Assembly (NCBI RefSeq): GCF_002067135.1
Contig: NZ_CP020105.1
Span: 124,001-188,000 of the forward strand
Source: Spirosoma rigui
GTDB lineage: Bacteria > Bacteroidota > Bacteroidia > Cytophagales > Spirosomataceae
Direction: 5' to 3'
Length of the DNA: 64,000 nucleotides
The notes beneath the pieces were generated by a model that searched no databases, was not told where the DNA came from, and worked only from the letters and a program-made list of their open reading frames with translations. Positions 47,599-55,563 of the stretch are shown in pieces. Every line of letters starts with the position of its first letter. The stretch's first letter is position 1. A program made the translations under genes and the position numbers.

Positions 47599-47656
47599 TT
47601 CTAAGGAGTTTCTAAGATGCGTTTAAGTGAGCTCTAAGAACTGGATGCGTACTTTG
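47599..47656 (+). promoter_or_regulatory. Trehalose-locus promoter box, copy A (four 11-bp-period direct repeats)
   Basis: TTCTAAG at 47599 and 47610, GTTTAAG at 47621 and CTCTAAG at 47632, exactly 11 bp apart, then 11 bp and TACTTTG at 47650-47656. Copy B upstream of the otsAB-like gene (53253-53310) has identical spacing and long identical stretches. Direct repeats with one-helical-turn period just upstream of the -7 element resemble sites of OmpR/PhoB-type activators. Confidence 0.85.
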
Positions 47657-47693
47657 TTCTGGTTCGCCCCTGAACCCCTTAATCCGGACGCTC

Positions 47694-47822
47694 ATGATCC
47701 CGTCATTACTAGCTGTACTCCTTACGCTTCCGTTCATCGCCGTGGCCCTGCTCGCTTTTAATATCTGGAAGCTTGTCCGGATGATTCAGGAACGGCTTCA
47801 GACCGAAGGCCTTTTGACATAA
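47694..47822 (+). CDS. 42-residue membrane peptide heading the TreZ-like operon
   Basis: MIPSLLAVLLTLPFIAVALLA then FNIWKLVRMIQERLQTEGLLT: one transmembrane helix and a short amphipathic basic tail. It begins 38 bases after the TACTTTG box of copy A, almost the same distance as the otsAB-like start from copy B (37), which supports it as the real first gene. It ends 90 bp before the TreZ-like gene. No family recognised. Confidence 0.55.
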   Translation: MIPSLLAVLLTLPFIAVALLAFNIWKLVRMIQERLQTEGLLT

Positions 47823-47912
47823 CCAGCGTACCGCTGACTAACAACCCGCGGGCGTAAAAACCAACTAAACCGTTGATTACTGGTTTTACCGTAACAACAT
47901 AGTGCGCAGAGG

Positions 47913-49625
47913 ATGGACCAGACAACAGTAAGCAGACGATTAATCGGGGTGACATTCACCGCCGAACAGAAAGCGAATGTCGTGGTGTGGGCTCCGCGTG
48001 CCAACCAGGTAGCCATTACCGTAAATGGCGATACCCATACGCTGCCCCTGACAAGCGACGATACGGGTTACTGGACGGTAACAACGGATCAGCTCAAACC
48101 CGGCGACCTCTATTCATTCGTGATCGATGGCGAGAAAGAATATGCCGATCCGGCTTCGCTCGCCCAGCCCCAGGGCGTATACGGCCCTTCGCAGGCGTTC
48201 GATACCCGGACGTTTTATTGGGAAGAGTCGTGCTGGGTAAATCCGCCCCTCGACGAGTACATCCTGTATGAACTCGACACCTATACCTTTACGCCCGAAG
48301 GCACGTTCAAAGCCGTTGTCAACAAACTCGGCTACCTGAAAAGCCTGGGCATCAACGCCATCGTGATCCGGCCCGTGACACCCTTCCCGGACTCACGCAA
48401 CTGGTCGTCCGACGGGGTGTTTCTCTACGCCGTGCAGGCATCCTACGGCGGACCGGCGCAGCTTCAGCAGCTTATCAACGCCTGCCACGTGAAAGGTATC
48501 GCCGTGATCATGGACCTCGCCTATAACCAGCTCGACGGCCACGGCAATTCGTTCAGTGACTGCCGTACCTATCCCAGCCGCCGGCAAAGTCATCAGCACC
48601 CGAGTAAACCCACGCATGCCAACGAGGCCCAGCAGGAAGCCGGACGACGTTACCTGGTGGAGAATGCGTTGATGTGGTTCCGCGATTTTCATGTCGACGC
48701 GCTACGCCTGAATGCCGCCCATACCCTGCCCGAATCCGAACGGCTCCTGAAAGAAATCAGACAGCAGACGAATACGCTGTCGGCCTCAACGGGTCGCCAC
48801 CATTACCTGCTCATCGAGAACGGGGTAAATTTAACCTCGGCGGTGGAGGCCGACGAACCCGCCAGCCAGCCTATGCAAGTGCTGGGTCACGAGGGCTACA
48901 GCACGTATTGCGTGGAGCATGAACTGAGCCGCCACCTGACCAAAACCTACCGGGAAGACTATATCTACGACGAACCATTTTCGACCGTTCTGCGGGACCT
49001 CTTCGACCGGCAAACCGAACCCGTGTCGGGCAGCCCGTTCGTACTGTTTTCCCAGCCGCACGAACGGATGCCGACAGCCGGCGATTGTTCGGGTCAGCCC
49101 ATCAGCCTCGACCTGCTGAAGCTGATGGCCGGGTCGATCATGGTTAGCCCTTATATTCCCACCCTGTTCATGGGAGAAGAATGGGGCGTAACGAATCCAT
49201 TTGACCTGGCCCAGCCCGAATCGTCGGAAACGGGTACCGATTCGCACCCGGCCTTACCCTGGGACATGCTGGATCAGCAGCCGAACAAAATGCTGTTCGA
49301 CTATTATCAGACGCTCACGGCGCTACGCCGTCAGCAGCCGGCGCTGCACCACCTGAACCCCAGGGAGATTGACGTTATCCAGCACAAAGAGCAGCAAACG
49401 ATGCTGCTGCACCGCTGGCACGGAGCAAGTGACATCATCTGCCTGCTCAACTTCTCGGCCGAACCCCAGTCGATCACCATACCGGTGCTCAACAAAACGT
49501 GGTGCAAACTCCTCGACTCAGCCGATCCGCGGTGGTCCGGCCCCGCAGCTTCGCCCGATGACCTTTCCGATGCCGAAACCCTCACGCTGCAGCCTGAATC
49601 GATCGTGGTGTACAAGGCACAATAG
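47913..49625 (+). CDS. TreZ-like (maltooligosyl-trehalose trehalohydrolase) GH13 protein, probably catalytically inactive
   Basis: 570 residues with TreZ layout: an N-terminal CBM48-like domain (VVVWAPRANQVAITVNG) and a GH13 barrel with the TreZ-like ENALMWFRDFHVDALRLNAAHTL stretch. The conserved GH13 regions are altered. Region I MDLAYNQ has Gln206 instead of His; region II ALRLNAAH has Asn267 where the nucleophile Asp belongs; region IV QPHERMP has Glu384 in place of the transition-state Asp. The region III glutamate (Glu302) is kept. No TreY gene, the usual partner, is visible. It belongs to a trehalose locus with TreS and OtsA-OtsB, so a regulatory or binding role is plausible. A real enzyme with unusual chemistry cannot be excluded. 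Confidence 0.8.
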   Translation: MDQTTVSRRLIGVTFTAEQKANVVVWAPRANQVAITVNGDTHTLPLTSDDTGYWTVTTDQLKPGDLYSFVIDGEKEYADPASLAQPQGVYGPSQAFDTRTFYWEESCWVNPPLDEYILYELDTYTFTPEGTFKAVVNKLGYLKSLGINAIVIRPVTPFPDSRNWSSDGVFLYAVQASYGGPAQLQQLINACHVKGIAVIMDLAYNQLDGHGNSFSDCRTYPSRRQSHQHPSKPTHANEAQQEAGRRYLVENALMWFRDFHVDALRLNAAHTLPESERLLKEIRQQTNTLSASTGRHHYLLIENGVNLTSAVEADEPASQPMQVLGHEGYSTYCVEHELSRHLTKTYREDYIYDEPFSTVLRDLFDRQTEPVSGSPFVLFSQPHERMPTAGDCSGQPISLDLLKLMAGSIMVSPYIPTLFMGEEWGVTNPFDLAQPESSETGTDSHPALPWDMLDQQPNKMLFDYYQTLTALRRQQPALHHLNPREIDVIQHKEQQTMLLHRWHGASDIICLLNFSAEPQSITIPVLNKTWCKLLDSADPRWSGPAASPDDLSDAETLTLQPESIVVYKAQ

Positions 49626-49644
49626 GACCGTAGCAACCGGCAGC

Positions 49645-49687
49645 AAAAAGCGAATGCCGTTACGTCGAGTAACGCCATTCGCTTTTT
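49645..49687. terminator. Bidirectional terminator between TreZ-like and TreS genes
   Basis: AAAAAGCGAATG and CATTCGCTTTTT, with an inner CGTTAC/GTAACG pairing, form a long stem with A and T tracts in the convergent gap. Confidence 0.85.
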
Positions 49688-49703
49688 CGTAAAGGCACCC
49701 TGT

Positions 49704-52700
49704 TTATTTATCCAGAATCGACTTGACGATCTGGAGTGGCACCCGTACCCAGTCGGGACGGTGGCTGAGTTCATCCGCCAGGCTGGCAATGGACATTTCG
49801 AGCAGATACGTCTCGATCATCATCTGCTGCTCATCAGGCTGGGCGGGGACGAACGAGCTACCGCGAACGGTTTCCAGGTATGATTTGAGAAAGAAACCAC
49901 GCATGTAATGTATCCACAGATCTGCGTAGGGCAGCAGCCGCATCGTTTCTTCGGCCGGCACCTGGTTATTGTTCAGGAAGCCCTCATAGGTCACGTAGTA
50001 GAACGACCGGATCATGGACGCCACATCGCGCAGCGGTGACCGTTTCAGCCGCCGTTCGCTGTAACTGCGGGCCGGATCGCCCCCGAAATCCTGAATGGCA
50101 ATATCCCGTCCCGTCACCATGATCTTCTCCAGCTTCAGATCGCCGTGAATCCGAATTTTGGCCGTATCGAGCTTTTTGCTGTAAATCCGCCGAAAGGTAG
50201 TCAGCACCTCTTCTTTGCGCCCCATCAGTTGCTCCACGTCTTTCCGGACGGTGTCGGGCAGTGCTTTTACCGACGCTTTCTGGATCTGGTCACTCTCGCG
50301 AACGAGCGATTGCAGGGCCGAAAAGAGCGACCGCTGGTAGTGGAGAGAGAAGTCTTCGGGCGCAAAATCCTTCTGATCTTTGCCCGAAGCCAGTGCCTGG
50401 TGCATCTGCCCGATCCGGATACCCAGCAACCGGGCCTGCTCGGCCGCCCGCCGTCCCAGCAGTTCCTGGGTTTCGAACGGTAAGTCGTCGAAGGCAACCG
50501 GCTCGATCAACGTGCCGCGGTGGGCGTCGGTGGCGAGGGCCAGCTGTTCGGCGTCACGCGCCAGGATACGCTCGATGAAATTGTTGATCCGTTCCAGTAC
50601 ATACCCCTGGCCGTCACCGTGGTTATCGACCATTTCCTGCATGGTACCCAGCATGATCGGTTTATCGGCGGTGGCGAGTTCGACCGTACCCGCAAACGTA
50701 GGCACGTGCTCGAACTGGGCCGTTTCCGACAGGAAGCGGGTAATTTCGTTGTCCGGATTAACCAGCAGATCGACCTTGCGGTAGAGCTTCAGCAGGTAGC
50801 AGTTGTCGTAGCTGATCGACGCGTAGCCGGGGCCGGTCGGGATCAGCTTCGTCTTGATCTCTTTGTGTTCCTGCGCGTAGGTATCCAGCGCGGGCGTACT
50901 CTGAAACAACAACGTACCCGCCGGGGCCGACGAGCCGCTGCCGACCATAGTCTGCAACAGCGCCTGCTGTACTTCGGTCATGTACAGGCCATCGCAGAGA
51001 ATACCCGTTTCCTCGCCAACGGTCAGACCGGCAATCACCGACTGCGGGCAGCTTTCACTTAATTTATCCGCTACGGCACCCCGCGCCAGCGCCACGATCA
51101 GCTGAAACGTTTCGGGCAGGCCGCGCTCGTAGGATACCTCAAGCAGTAGAGCGTAGGCGTTTCCGTCGGCGAGCGGCAGGGTGGCACTGTTGGTAATGAC
51201 AATACCATGAATCGGATGGCCTTTCCCGGCAAACCAATCGGTTTTGAGCAGATAATCGGGCAGCACATCGGCTTCAAGTTTTTCCCGGTTGCGGCTATTC
51301 AGCAGCTCGTCCCAGTTCCTGACCTGCAGCGAGGGCACGTTGGCCGAATCGGTAAGTTCGACGTTCGTTTTTTCCAGCACAAACCACTGGTAGTCGTGGG
51401 GTGCCAGCGTAAAGAAGTATGTTTCTTTCTCTGATACGGACGGAAACGCATTCTTGCTGAATACCTCTACCGGCACGTATCCTTTAAAGCCGGGGAGTTC
51501 CACTTCGGCGGGCTGGGCGTATTTCGACAGGTTGATAACGATCAGCAGCGTTTCGTCTTCGTAAGTCCGCGTAAAAGCCAGCACCTTGGGGTTTTCGACG
51601 GTCAGGAAAACCAGATCGCCCCGCCCGAAGGCCTTGTGCATTTTGCGCAGGTTGATCATGCGCTTCATGAACCAGAACAGCGAAGACGTATTCCGGCGCT
51701 GGGTTTCCACGTTGACCGATTCGTAGTGGTATTCCGGATCGAGCACCGTGGGCAGATACAGCTTTTGCGGGTTCGTGCTCGAAAAACCGGCGTTGCGGTC
51801 CGGCGACCACTGCATGGGCGTCCGGACTCCGTCGCGGTCGCCCAGGTATACGTTATCGCCCATGCCGATTTCATCCCCGTAGTAGATAACGGGTGTACCG
51901 GGCAGCGAGAAGAGTAGGCTGTTAAGCAGTTCTATCTTCTTGCGATTGTTGCCCATCAGGGGCGACAGCCGGTGCCGGATACCGAGGTTGATCTTGGCTT
52001 TGGGGTCTTTGGCGTACGTCTTGTACATGTAGTCCCGTTCCTCATCGGTCACCATTTCGAGGGTCAGCTCGTCGTGGTTGCGCAGGAAAATGGCCCACTG
52101 GCAGGTGTCGGGGATAGCGGGCGTCTGGTCAAAGATATCCGTGATCGGGTACCGGTCCTCCATCTGTAACGCCATGAACATCCGCGGCATGACGGGGAAG
52201 TGGTAGTTCATGTGGCACTCGTCGCCATCACCAAAATACGAAGCCGAATCTTCGGGCCACATGTTGGCCTCGGCCAGGAATACGACACCCGGAAAATGAT
52301 CGTCAATATGTTTCCGTAGTTTTTTCAGGAAAGCGTGCGTCTCGGGCAGGTTCTCGCCATTGGTTCCTTCGCGCTCGAAGAGATACGGTACGGCATCGAG
52401 CCGGAAACCGTCGACCCCCAGTTCGCACCAGTAATCGATCATCTTGAAGACTTCGCCCTGCACCAGCGGGTTGTCGTAGTTGAGGTCGGGTTGGTGGTGA
52501 AAGAACCGGTGCCAGTAGTACTGCTGGGCTTCCTGATCCCAGGTCCAGTTGGAGGTTTCGAAATCCTGAAAAATAATCCGGACATCCTTGTACTGGGTCG
52601 GGTCGTCGGTCCAGACGTAGTACGCACGTTCGGGCGAGTCTTTGGGAGCCCGCCGGGCGCGCTGAAACCAGGGATGCTGATCGGACGAGTGGTTGATGAC

Positions 52701-53024
52701 CAGCTCGGTGATAACTTTCAGGTTACGCTGGTGCGCTTCCTCCAGAAACCGCTTGAACTGCTCAATGGTGCCGTAAGACGGATTGATGGTGTAGTAATCG
52801 GCAATGTCATACCCATCGTCGCGCAGCGGAGACGGGTAAAAGGGCAGCAGCCAGATGGCCGTAACGCCTAGTTCCTGCAGGTAATCCAGTTTCTCGAGCA
52901 GGCCCTGGAAGTCTCCGATTCCATCGCTATTTCCGTCCCGAAAGGCTTTAATATGCAATTCATAGATGATGGCATCTTTATACCAGTGTAGATTCTCGAA
53001 TAGTTCTGTGTTGCTCTTTACCAT
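49704..53024 (-). CDS. treS: Trehalose synthase (TreS) fused to maltokinase (Pep2-like)
   Basis: 1,106 residues from the ATG at 53024 (MVKSNTELFENLHWYKDAI), the usual TreS start. The GH13 part (about 1-550) has all catalytic regions: DGFRLDAVPYL (nucleophile), FLAEANMWPED (acid/base) and FLRNHDELTLEM. The C-terminal part is maltokinase: IRIHGDLKLEKIMV and IQDFGGDPARSYSERRLKRSPLRDVASM (usual motif DFEGEP). It interconverts maltose and trehalose and phosphorylates maltose to maltose 1-phosphate, feeding glycogen synthesis through GlgE. Longer frames from ATG 53126 or GTG 53156 exist but lack family support. The gene is divergent from the otsAB-like gene. Confidence 0.93.
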   Translation of the reverse strand: MVKSNTELFENLHWYKDAIIYELHIKAFRDGNSDGIGDFQGLLEKLDYLQELGVTAIWLLPFYPSPLRDDGYDIADYYTINPSYGTIEQFKRFLEEAHQRNLKVITELVINHSSDQHPWFQRARRAPKDSPERAYYVWTDDPTQYKDVRIIFQDFETSNWTWDQEAQQYYWHRFFHHQPDLNYDNPLVQGEVFKMIDYWCELGVDGFRLDAVPYLFEREGTNGENLPETHAFLKKLRKHIDDHFPGVVFLAEANMWPEDSASYFGDGDECHMNYHFPVMPRMFMALQMEDRYPITDIFDQTPAIPDTCQWAIFLRNHDELTLEMVTDEERDYMYKTYAKDPKAKINLGIRHRLSPLMGNNRKKIELLNSLLFSLPGTPVIYYGDEIGMGDNVYLGDRDGVRTPMQWSPDRNAGFSSTNPQKLYLPTVLDPEYHYESVNVETQRRNTSSLFWFMKRMINLRKMHKAFGRGDLVFLTVENPKVLAFTRTYEDETLLIVINLSKYAQPAEVELPGFKGYVPVEVFSKNAFPSVSEKETYFFTLAPHDYQWFVLEKTNVELTDSANVPSLQVRNWDELLNSRNREKLEADVLPDYLLKTDWFAGKGHPIHGIVITNSATLPLADGNAYALLLEVSYERGLPETFQLIVALARGAVADKLSESCPQSVIAGLTVGEETGILCDGLYMTEVQQALLQTMVGSGSSAPAGTLLFQSTPALDTYAQEHKEIKTKLIPTGPGYASISYDNCYLLKLYRKVDLLVNPDNEITRFLSETAQFEHVPTFAGTVELATADKPIMLGTMQEMVDNHGDGQGYVLERINNFIERILARDAEQLALATDAHRGTLIEPVAFDDLPFETQELLGRRAAEQARLLGIRIGQMHQALASGKDQKDFAPEDFSLHYQRSLFSALQSLVRESDQIQKASVKALPDTVRKDVEQLMGRKEEVLTTFRRIYSKKLDTAKIRIHGDLKLEKIMVTGRDIAIQDFGGDPARSYSERRLKRSPLRDVASMIRSFYYVTYEGFLNNNQVPAEETMRLLPYADLWIHYMRGFFLKSYLETVRGSSFVPAQPDEQQMMIETYLLEMSIASLADELSHRPDWVRVPLQIVKSILDK

Positions 53025-53180
53025 GTTTGCGTCCGATTTGGGCAGTGGGTTGCCAACCAGTTTGCGGCTGTGTTTCCTTTTAGGTGAAACATTGAGCAAT
53101 ACGGAAGGTTTAGATAAAGTATACATATCAGGTCTAGTAATAGGGATACGCACCACCCGATCCCTTGGTTGAAAAACCGG

Positions 53181-53198
53181 CTTATAACTCCTTTAGGG
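53181..53198 (-). promoter_or_regulatory. Possible diverged box upstream of treS
   Basis: On the minus strand this reads CCCTAAA-GGAG-TTATAAG: two 7-mers separated by 4 bp, like the TTCTAAG boxes (6 of 7 matches in the second, 4 of 7 in the first). TACTTTA follows at 53115-53121, about 60 bases downstream on that strand. Weak compared with copies A and B. Confidence 0.3.
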
Positions 53199-53252
53199 AC
53201 AACGTAGCGTACCAGTTACTTACTAGCCCGCTGCACTGGCCAACCCCGTTCC

Positions 53253-53310
53253 TTCTAAGGAGTTTCTAAGATTACCTTAAGTCGCTTCTAAGCCAGCGCA
53301 ACGTACTTTG
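53253..53310 (+). promoter_or_regulatory. Trehalose-locus promoter box, copy B
   Basis: TTCTAAG at 53253 and 53264, CCTTAAG at 53275, TTCTAAG at 53286 (11-bp period), then TACTTTG at 53304-53310. The first 20 bases and the last 10 are identical to copy A and all spacings match. The otsAB-like start codon is 37 bases further on. Confidence 0.85.
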
Positions 53311-53346
53311 TTTATTATTCTGAGCGCTCAGCAGCGCACAAACTCC

Positions 53347-55563
53347 ATGAAATCATTCGAGTCTTCGTTCAACCGCCTTCTTATCGTTTCCTACCGTTTG
53401 CCGTTCTCATTTCACCAGCGCGAAGACGGTATCGAGTTGGTGCAGAACTCGGGCGGGCTGGTCTCGGCGGTGCTCTCTATGGCGGAGCGAATGGGCCAGC
53501 AGCAGGGCGGTGTAGCCACTAAAATTCACTGGGTAGGACACTGCGATCCGGCCTTCAGGCACATTGAGCCATCGGCGTTCGAGAACGAAACTTTCGTGGC
53601 GCATCCCGTTTTTATGGACGACGCCGTTCACAAGGGCTTTTACGAAGGGTTCAGCAATGATATGATCTGGCCCCTTTTTCATTATTTCACGTCCTACGCT
53701 TCGTTCAACGAAAGTGACTTCGACAACTACCAGCGCGCCAATACCCGTTTTCTGGAGGAGCTCAACACCCTGATCCAGCCCGGCGACCTGGTCTGGATTC
53801 ACGATTTTCAACTCATGCTGCTCCCCGACATGGTCCGGCAGCTTAACCCGACCGCAACGATTGGCTACTTTTTCCATATCCCTTTTCCTACCTACGAAAT
53901 CATCAAATTACTGCCCCGCACCTGGCGGCAGGTATTGATCAAAGGTATTCTCGGTGCCGATGTGGTGGGATTCCATACCCCCGACTACGTGCAGCATTTT
54001 TTGCAGAGCGTTTCCGAAGTGCTGGCCCTGCCCACCATTAGCTCCCGGATCGTACTACCCGACCGCTCCGTCGTGGTTCGGGACTTCCCCATCAGTATCG
54101 ACTTCAACAAGTTCAACAAGAGTGCTCAGGAGGCCGCCGTGGTTGAAACGCGGGAGCGCTACCGCTCGCTGCTACCCGGAAACAAAATCATCTTCTCCGT
54201 CGACCGGCTCGATTACACCAAAGGCATCACCTTCCGGCTCCAGGGCTACGAGCGCTTTCTGACCCAGAATCCCGACTGGCACAATAAGGTAACGTTCGTG
54301 ATTACGGTGGTCCCCTCCCGCGATCAGATCACGCAGTATCAGGAGATCAAGCGGGAAATTGAGGAAACCGTTGGCCGTATCAACGGCCTGTTCGGCTCCA
54401 TCGGCTGGCGTCCGATCGTGTATTCCTACACCTCACTGGCCTTTACCGAACTGATGGCGCTGTATACCGCCTGCGACATCGCCCTGATCACGCCCGTCCG
54501 GGACGGTATGAACCTGGTCTGTAAAGAGTTTGTCGCCAGCCGGCAGGACCGGCAGGGCGTACTGATCCTGAGCGAGCTGGCGGGGGCCGCCCAGGAGTTG
54601 CAGGATGCGCTTATTATCAACCCGACGGATACGCAGGAAGTAGCCGACGCCATTAAACAAGGATTGGCGATGTCGCCACAGGAACAGGAACAACGAATAA
54701 CGACGATGCAGAAACACCTCCAGAACCATAGCATTTTCCGGTGGAGCAACGACTTCCTCACCGCCTTCGACGAGGTCGTGAGCCAGCAGCCCGACCTCGA
54801 AACCGATCTGTCCATTCAGCCGTTTATTACGGCATTCCGCGATGCCCGCCAGCGGCTGTTACTCTTCGACTTCGACGGGACGCTGGCTCCCCTCGTGGAC
54901 AACCCCGCCAACGCCCGGCCCTCCGATGCGCTCAAAGCGGCCCTGCGTACGCTCGCCGAAGGCAGCAACCTGGTGGTTATCAGCGGTCGTAACCGGTCGT
55001 TCCTGGAACGCACCCTTGGGGATATTCCCCTGTACCTGGTGGCCGAGCACGGCGCTTTCCTGAAAAAACCCGATCACGACTGGGAGCGGCTCGACCTGTC
55101 CGACAGCGACTGGGTTGATCCTGTCCGGGAGTTGCTGACCAGCTTCGTAGACCGGTTTCCGGGTTCCTCCATCGAGGAAAAAGAGACGGCTATCGCCTGG
55201 CACTACCGAACTGCCACCGACGATGATATTGAAGGCCACGCCATTGAACTGGCGACCCAGCTGCGGGCGACCCCCTCGCCCATTCCCCTTACGGTGATCC
55301 AGGGCAGTAAGGTGGTTGAAGTTAAACCCGCCCAGCACAGCAAAGGAACGGTAGCCCTCAAAATTGCGGAGCAAACGCCCTATGACTTCATCGTTAGCAT
55401 CGGCGACGACACGACCGACGAAGATATGTTCCGGCAGTTGCCCAACTGGGCTTACACCATCAAAGTGGGACCGGGTGTTTCCTTTGCGCGGTACCGACTG
55501 GCCCGGCAACGGGATGTCGAAGCCCTGCTGCAACGCATGAGCGACGTACTGGTCGATGCCTGA
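53347..55563 (+). CDS. Bifunctional trehalose-6-phosphate synthase/phosphatase (OtsA-OtsB fusion)
   Basis: 738 residues from the ATG at 53347. The GT20 synthase domain (1 to about 470) has [41 protein letters not shown] (donor phosphate binding) and [17 protein letters not shown]. The C-terminal HAD phosphatase (about 495-738) has [13 protein letters not shown] (nucleophile), [17 protein letters not shown] and [12 protein letters not shown]. Together these make trehalose from UDP-glucose (or another NDP-glucose) and glucose 6-phosphate. It has its own copy of the repeat promoter box and a strong terminator. Confidence 0.95.

Follow-up and report, generated by a model that had tools for sequence, protein, structure and literature searches.

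In a 64,000-nucleotide stretch of Spirosoma rigui DNA (contig NZ_CP020105.1, positions 124,001 to 188,000; hereafter the window), two trehalose units, one with a treZ-like gene and the other an otsA-otsB fusion (otsAB), are each preceded by a 58-bp module (47599-47656 and 53253-53310), in which four 7-bp half-sites (units 1 to 4) with an exact 11-bp period are followed, after 11 bp, by TACTTTG. Sequence comparison makes it likely that these operator arrays are read by an OmpR-type response regulator encoded at 4517262 of the same genome, which would activate both trehalose units within an envelope or osmotic-stress regulon. In the proposed mechanism, the module would be a promoter combined with an operator array for the phosphorylated regulator, two dimers of which would occupy the four half-sites in head-to-tail orientation along the same face of the helix. 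The array would occupy the region of a would-be -33 element, with half-site 4 ending 11 bp before the -7 element; if the -7 box lies at -12 to -5, as given for Bacteroidota in PMC9723704, the arrays would span about -62 to -23. The bound regulator would recruit RNA polymerase in a class II activator layout and, together with a histidine kinase encoded beside it, would control trehalose synthesis, RND efflux, envelope proteins and small membrane proteins. Class II activation is known from PhoB. We infer binding, phosphorylation, activation and the signal alike, the last being probably osmotic or envelope stress.

The gapless two-copy array with an 11-bp period and TACTTTG, which had been described in an earlier note made from the letters of the window, was borne out by direct reading of both modules, and the two copies share 43 of 59 bases when aligned without gaps. 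A matrix built on 50 sites, all from other genomes and with the sites of this genome excluded, gave the two modules the scores listed in Table 1, and the next-best place in the 64 kb scored -3.3 bits. The window contains two exact copies of the pair TTCTAAG-N4-TTCTAAG; when up to three mismatches were allowed, the two-unit pattern had nine matches there against a shuffle mean of 3.4, a count of nine being reached by 2 of 100 shuffles. The start codons had been placed at near-equal distances of 38 and 37 bases. The near-equality holds, at 37 and 36 bases from TACTTTG to the ATG at 47694 and 53347, but the first of these opens a 42-amino-acid (aa) open reading frame (ORF), and the treZ-like ORF starts only at 47913. 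A small ORF between the array and treZ is also present in genome G029.

Across the whole genome, model R1, which was built from 11 of its own sites, gave each of these 11 a score of at least 31.9 bits, and every other place stayed at or below 18.4. Scans of chosen stretches added 3425326 (39.4 bits) and perhaps 1867605 (22.3 bits) and demoted 2970397 (13.9 bits), so that the total stands at about 11-13 arrays. The matrix used for the fetched regions described below was also trained on own sites, and model R2 and its matrix were trained on sites from the genus, so scores on training sites hold by construction; free of this circularity are the comparison of the own sequence with the matrix lacking own sites and 15 loci outside the genus. 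Additionally, 13 genome matches to the two-unit pattern carry at most one mismatch, and ten of them fall inside nine of the arrays, most of which show recognisable units 3 and 4 and a TTTG- or TTGC-like element in phase, features that were unused in finding them. The remaining three near-exact pairs (4456791, 4462195, 4463592) do not continue into a full array.

The grammar of the array was established on 33 regions from 20 genomes (833 kb), picked for pattern matches, arrays or otsAB. In these, 167 places scored at least 14 bits and 145 at least 20 (shifted hits within an array being counted), and no score exceeded 12.3 in a base-by-base shuffle of the same 833 kb. The logo of 119 non-redundant sites from these 20 genus genomes yields the consensus YTCTAAK-N4-TTCTAAK-N4-nnTTAAG-N4-nTCTAAn, in which unit 3 is nnTTAAG and units 1, 2 and 4 are mostly TCTAAG or TCTTAG, with the half-sites graded and units 1 and 2 strongest. 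In units 1-3 the TAA cores reach 86-100% conservation, and T37 and A39 of unit 4, like T55 and T56 of the -7 element, are conserved at 97-99%. That spacers vary while half-sites are kept, as the earlier note had read from two copies, is also seen in these 119 sites. The -7 element is fixed 11 bp past unit 4; the 119 sites were chosen with a matrix that includes the -7 columns, yet most of the own sites that had initially been detected with units 1 and 2 alone also have the element in phase. Two sub-grammars can be distinguished: in the first, a unit 4 with CTAA pairs with a TTTG -7 box (otsAB, treZ, and gene families C2 and C7), whereas in the second, a unit 4 with CTTA pairs with TTG one base nearer (TPR, membrane-fusion protein, C17 and treS). 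The coupling gives a Fisher value of 1.6e-14 on the 119 sites, but orthologous sites are non-independent and the 187-aa family (C13) is an exception.

Arrays were found by R1 in 32 of the 36 genus genomes; the places listed from the genome scans are the best ones, and the counts per genome are whole. The nearest same-strand genes behind them, counted over 20 mapped genomes, encode coiled-coil-like proteins (17 genomes), small membrane-like proteins (16), TPR proteins (16) and otsAB (16), followed by RND membrane-fusion proteins (12), a 187-aa protein (8), treZ-like proteins (7), a small protein (6), treS (4) and a fatty-acid-hydroxylase family (4). The expectation that the arrays also precede trehalose genes in relatives was confirmed, whereas that of an activator dedicated to trehalose was not, since the regulon is wider. 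Before otsAB, an array of 32.7-64.2 bits was found in 26 of 30 loci (29 genomes), with the ATG 26-39 bases past the -7 element, the first ATG beyond 25 bases being taken and the start codons being putative; this set consists of the loci retrieved, and one fragment as well as second copies with 42-48% identity fall outside it. In three genomes (G008, G001, G015), many targets are grouped in a single island that also contains DUF389, Na+/H+ exchanger and CLC genes, and the island genes are dispersed over at least four places in the genome of the window. Trehalose synthesis and the transporters of the island together suggest osmotic or envelope stress, and the osmotic or desiccation signal proposed in the earlier note is likewise drawn from gene content. 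At wider range, R2 found arrays in 115 of 222 genomes of the family and, at E 1e-5, in 24 of 291 genomes of the order, seven of them outside the family; one of the latter (G273) has three arrays near a 55% relative of the regulator.

The search for a co-occurring regulator, which the earlier note had recommended, led to the OmpR-type regulator 4517262 and its kinase, in agreement with the PhoB/OmpR-type geometry that had been recognised in the 11-bp direct repeats. The kinase gene adjoins the regulator gene in most locus maps, and in G008, G001 and G015 the island of array-bearing genes also contains the regulator gene. The orthologue is clearly set apart from other matches, with at least 393.7 bits in 29 of the 36 genus genomes and 311.0 for the next-best match, and the number of arrays by R1 follows it, since 2-15 arrays are found in the 29 genomes with the orthologue and 0, 0, 0, 0, 1, 1 and 1 in the seven without. 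On a tree built from another regulator-kinase pair, which covers 34 of the 36 genomes (G026 and G028 are absent), the orthologue was lost at five separate tips, each time with loss of arrays; for example, G004 (0 arrays) stands beside G005 (4), and G003 (0) beside G008 (12). The same relation holds in the family, where at least three arrays are found in 44 of 52 genomes with the orthologue versus 8 of 170 without it. In addition, all 32 loci with at least 79% identity, 15 of them from genera outside the matrix training set, have an array no more than 3 kb from the regulator, versus 16 of 48 loci below 79%. The named genomes of this locus set belong to Spirosoma, Larkinella, Fibrisoma, Fibrella, Fibrivirga, Rudanella and Arsenicibacter, with one filed as Flavobacterium. 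Arrays are located beside, between or after the regulator and kinase genes; the five loci mapped in genera g8, g3 and g6 have their array between the two genes or right behind the kinase, and in the genome of the window the nearest one precedes a 52-aa ORF behind the kinase. The recognition helix VVEVYINYLRKKI is found in the own regulator and in 8 of 10 orthologues inspected. A single-sequence structure model of the regulator reached a mean pLDDT of 40.7 and was not used.

Some observations limit the motif itself or weigh against the reading that 4517262 is the reader of the arrays. As to the motif, the loose two-unit pattern (up to three mismatches) is not enriched genome-wide, with 71 + 80 matches versus 114 + 116 for the reversed control; close matches alone stand out, so that single pairs mean little and the full array was used instead. 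All five independent pairs of the tree agree, but the resulting p = 0.0625 is the best reachable with five pairs, and because arrays and regulator are often physical neighbours, their co-loss may partly be the loss of one island. The otsAB loci lacking an array are those of G009, G020 (two copies) and G023, and in G009 and G020 the regulator is present. Conversely, G023 lacks the orthologue yet has arrays (one by R1, two by R2; one examined scored 48 bits), and the 8 of 170 family genomes mentioned above carry 3-4 arrays. For the question of what happens when targets are kept and the regulator is lost, only G023 is informative, as it keeps otsAB and treS and has no array before otsAB; in the other six genomes without the orthologue, neither otsAB nor, at E 1e-100, treS was matched, and a TPR relative, of no more than 36-40%, was present in five of the six. 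The target list also includes efflux, envelope and uncharacterised genes, so that the osmotic role is a guess and other signals are possible.

The arrays of G023 and of the 8 family genomes without the orthologue also speak for the main rival, cross-regulation by paralogues that share parts of the operator code: one or more other OmpR-type regulators would read the arrays, and the trehalose units would answer to more than one signal. We regard this as rather unlikely. It draws on regulators of the own genome, which are also points against the sole reader proposed here: 4470569 shares the candidate's recognition helix and has an array next to efflux genes, an array separates 3426712 (61% identical) from its kinase, and 1245892 lies near four arrays. 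In other genomes, a TPR array stands beside another regulator-kinase pair (G014), a treZ array lies near a 55% relative (G033), and further pairs have an array behind the kinase (G010, G027). On the other hand, array number tracks the orthologue, since neither R1 nor R2 found an array in G003, G004 and G017, which keep 62% paralogues, and a nearby site, at 27-33 bits, accompanies the 58-60% paralogue of Spirosoma and near genera in only 3 of 17 loci. Regulator 1245892 had been the first suspect owing to its four neighbouring arrays; it shares 56% identity with the island regulator and has a different helix, and it was set aside since the same targets sit in the island of the other regulator in G008, G001 and G015, although the pair beside the G014 TPR array, which is of a different kind from the candidate, keeps it a possible reader.

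Among known systems, the closest operator is that of CiaR in streptococci, which, according to PMC3091779, binds NTTAAG-N5-TTTAAG with the -10 box 10 bases further on, has a regulon that includes small RNAs and carries the recognition helix VVEVYVSKVRKKL. Eight of 13 residues are identical between this helix and VVEVYINYLRKKI, a comparison made by the published helix alone, and in both systems the repeats recur every 11 bp and the -10 or -7 box follows after about 10 bases. CiaR differs in having two half-sites instead of four, TATAAT instead of the Bacteroidota -7 element, and other targets than trehalose and RND efflux; units 1, 2 and 4 here are also mostly TCTAAG. By analogy, the period and the promoter distance of the Spirosoma array are of the CiaR kind, doubled, and the half-site may be as well. 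This layout also bears on the sign of regulation. Repression of these promoters by the regulator, which would follow if the protein bound next to the -7 element blocked polymerase, is improbable, considering that the array replaces the -33 element at a fixed distance from the -7 element, as in the CiaR-activated promoters described in PMC3091779, and that no separate -33 element was found within the 59 columns of the 119-site logo. Still less probable is that the motif is recognised by an alternative sigma factor instead of serving as an activator operator, a reading in line with the fixed distance to the -7 element and the use before many operons but opposed by the closely linked OmpR-type regulator. 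We know of no sigma-factor promoter with four tandem copies at an 11-bp period over 40 bp. Finally, the idea that the copies arose by recent duplication, or belong to a mobile repeat, and have no particular function is favoured by their identical first 20 bases but was rejected, since the array is kept before otsAB (26/30), half-sites stay while spacers vary, and the similarity between the two copies does not exceed that of either one to its orthologous counterparts in the nearest species (40-44/59). The term "duplicated" of the earlier note is accordingly not supported.

The half-site of the pho box, read by PhoB in E. coli, differs in sequence from the array described here, and no phosphate gene is found among the targets typed. 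PhoB resembles the present system in its direct repeats, its phosphorylated regulator and its strict spacing to the core promoter, according to PMC10294691. By sequence, the nearest solved relatives of the regulator are PhoP of Mycobacterium tuberculosis (full-length similarity, E 2e-49) and 1kgs, "DNA binding response regulator D" (full-length similarity, E 9e-53). In PMC3413638, PhoP is described as binding the direct repeats DR1/DR2, of 9 bp and 1-5 bp apart, with a third repeat at variable distance, unlike the strict 11-bp period found here. RprY of Porphyromonas gingivalis and Bacteroides fragilis is likewise an OmpR-family stress regulator of Bacteroidota and is linked to sodium, but the text of PMC3646045 does not contain the terms consensus, motif or binding site. 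No paper describing the motif or the regulon was found by title among the matches listed, in the open-access literature. To our knowledge, an operator has been defined for few OmpR-type regulators of Bacteroidota, and among the titles listed none concerned a regulon of the OmpR/PhoB type with operators like those of CiaR in this group.

The coordinates of the window features and of the regulator-kinase pair are collected in Table 1. The treS-maltokinase fusion has no array aimed at it in this genome, and 4 of the 20 mapped genomes have one.

Table 1. Features of the trehalose locus (window coordinates) and the candidate regulatory pair (genome coordinates).
Feature	Position	Strand	Description	Score or remark
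Operator array 1	47599..47638	+	Half-sites TTCTAAG, TTCTAAG, GTTTAAG, CTCTAAG at 47599, 47610, 47621, 47632	51.4 bits
-7-type promoter element TACTTTG (module 1)	47650..47656	+	11 bp past array 1	Predicted, likened to the Bacteroidota -7 box
42-aa small ORF	47694..47822	+	First ORF past array 1	Membrane-like by eye
treZ-like gene	47913..49625	+	Domains CBM48, GH13 alpha-amylase, DUF3459	
treS-maltokinase fusion gene	49704..53156	-		True start probably downstream of 53156
Operator array 2	53253..53292	+	Half-sites TTCTAAG, TTCTAAG, CCTTAAG, TTCTAAG at 53253, 53264, 53275, 53286	59.5 bits
-7-type promoter element TACTTTG (module 2)	53304..53310	+	11 bp past array 2	
otsA-otsB fusion	53347..55563	+	Trehalose-6-phosphate synthase + phosphatase	
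OmpR-type response regulator	4517262-4517933	-	Receiver PF00072 + Trans_reg_C PF00486 (winged helix)	Outside window
Histidine kinase	4515758-4517137	-	HisKA + HATPase_c	Outside window

Some further observations were made on and around the arrays. The otsAB leaders (53311-53349 in the window) often contain a short hairpin, e.g. GCGTT-CAGT-AACGC before the ATG, with stem letters that change between species. A conserved leader hairpin is not claimed, since a stem of at least five pairs is found in 21 of 25 leaders but also in a fraction of 0.42 of shuffled leaders, and the pairs are out of register when the leader alignment is read.

One of the strongest arrays of the genome (L036:7862-8042; 4513861-4514041, minus strand) has no ORF behind it and is followed by a strong hairpin with a T-run within about 180 bases of its start. 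The predicted RNA of about 120 nucleotides folds better than its shuffles (z -3.0), and both array and hairpin (z -3.4) are retained in the nearest species (G034, L254). This hairpin with its T-run was not among the predictions of a terminator scan. It is a candidate small RNA, or merely the shared terminator of convergent genes. Directly behind the array adjoining the kinase lies the 52-aa ORF (MFRLLNRPEQ...; L036:9474-9632, minus strand), as it does in L254 behind 10322 (minus strand); by eye, it resembles the C7 small proteins that follow arrays in 16 of 20 genomes, and it possibly has a feedback or accessory role.

The decayed array at 2970397 (L033:8398-8456, plus strand) adjoins a CLC gene and has no gene behind it, while a C2 gene stands at that place in G008 and G001; it may be a relic of a broken-up island. 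In G023 (L246), a strong array precedes a set of lipoprotein-like, fatty-acid-hydroxylase and MscS genes. Near 56-60% relatives of the regulator in distant Bacteroidota (L356 position 1657; L342 position 5093), TTTTAAT-like units with an 11-bp period and CTTTGC behind them were seen, and the array type may be phylum-wide.

Taken further, the arrays could define a regulon central to envelope and osmotic stress in the Spirosoma group of Bacteroidota, with one regulator-kinase pair, two coupled grammars, trehalose synthesis, RND efflux, small membrane proteins and at least one small RNA, a wider picture that we put forward tentatively. The unusual part of the system is the four-unit array with two coupled sub-grammars. 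With a strictly phased array, a candidate regulator and targets shared across species, the regulon is directly testable; it offers a lead on how these bacteria may turn on trehalose synthesis and envelope defence, and the module itself may serve as an inducible promoter.

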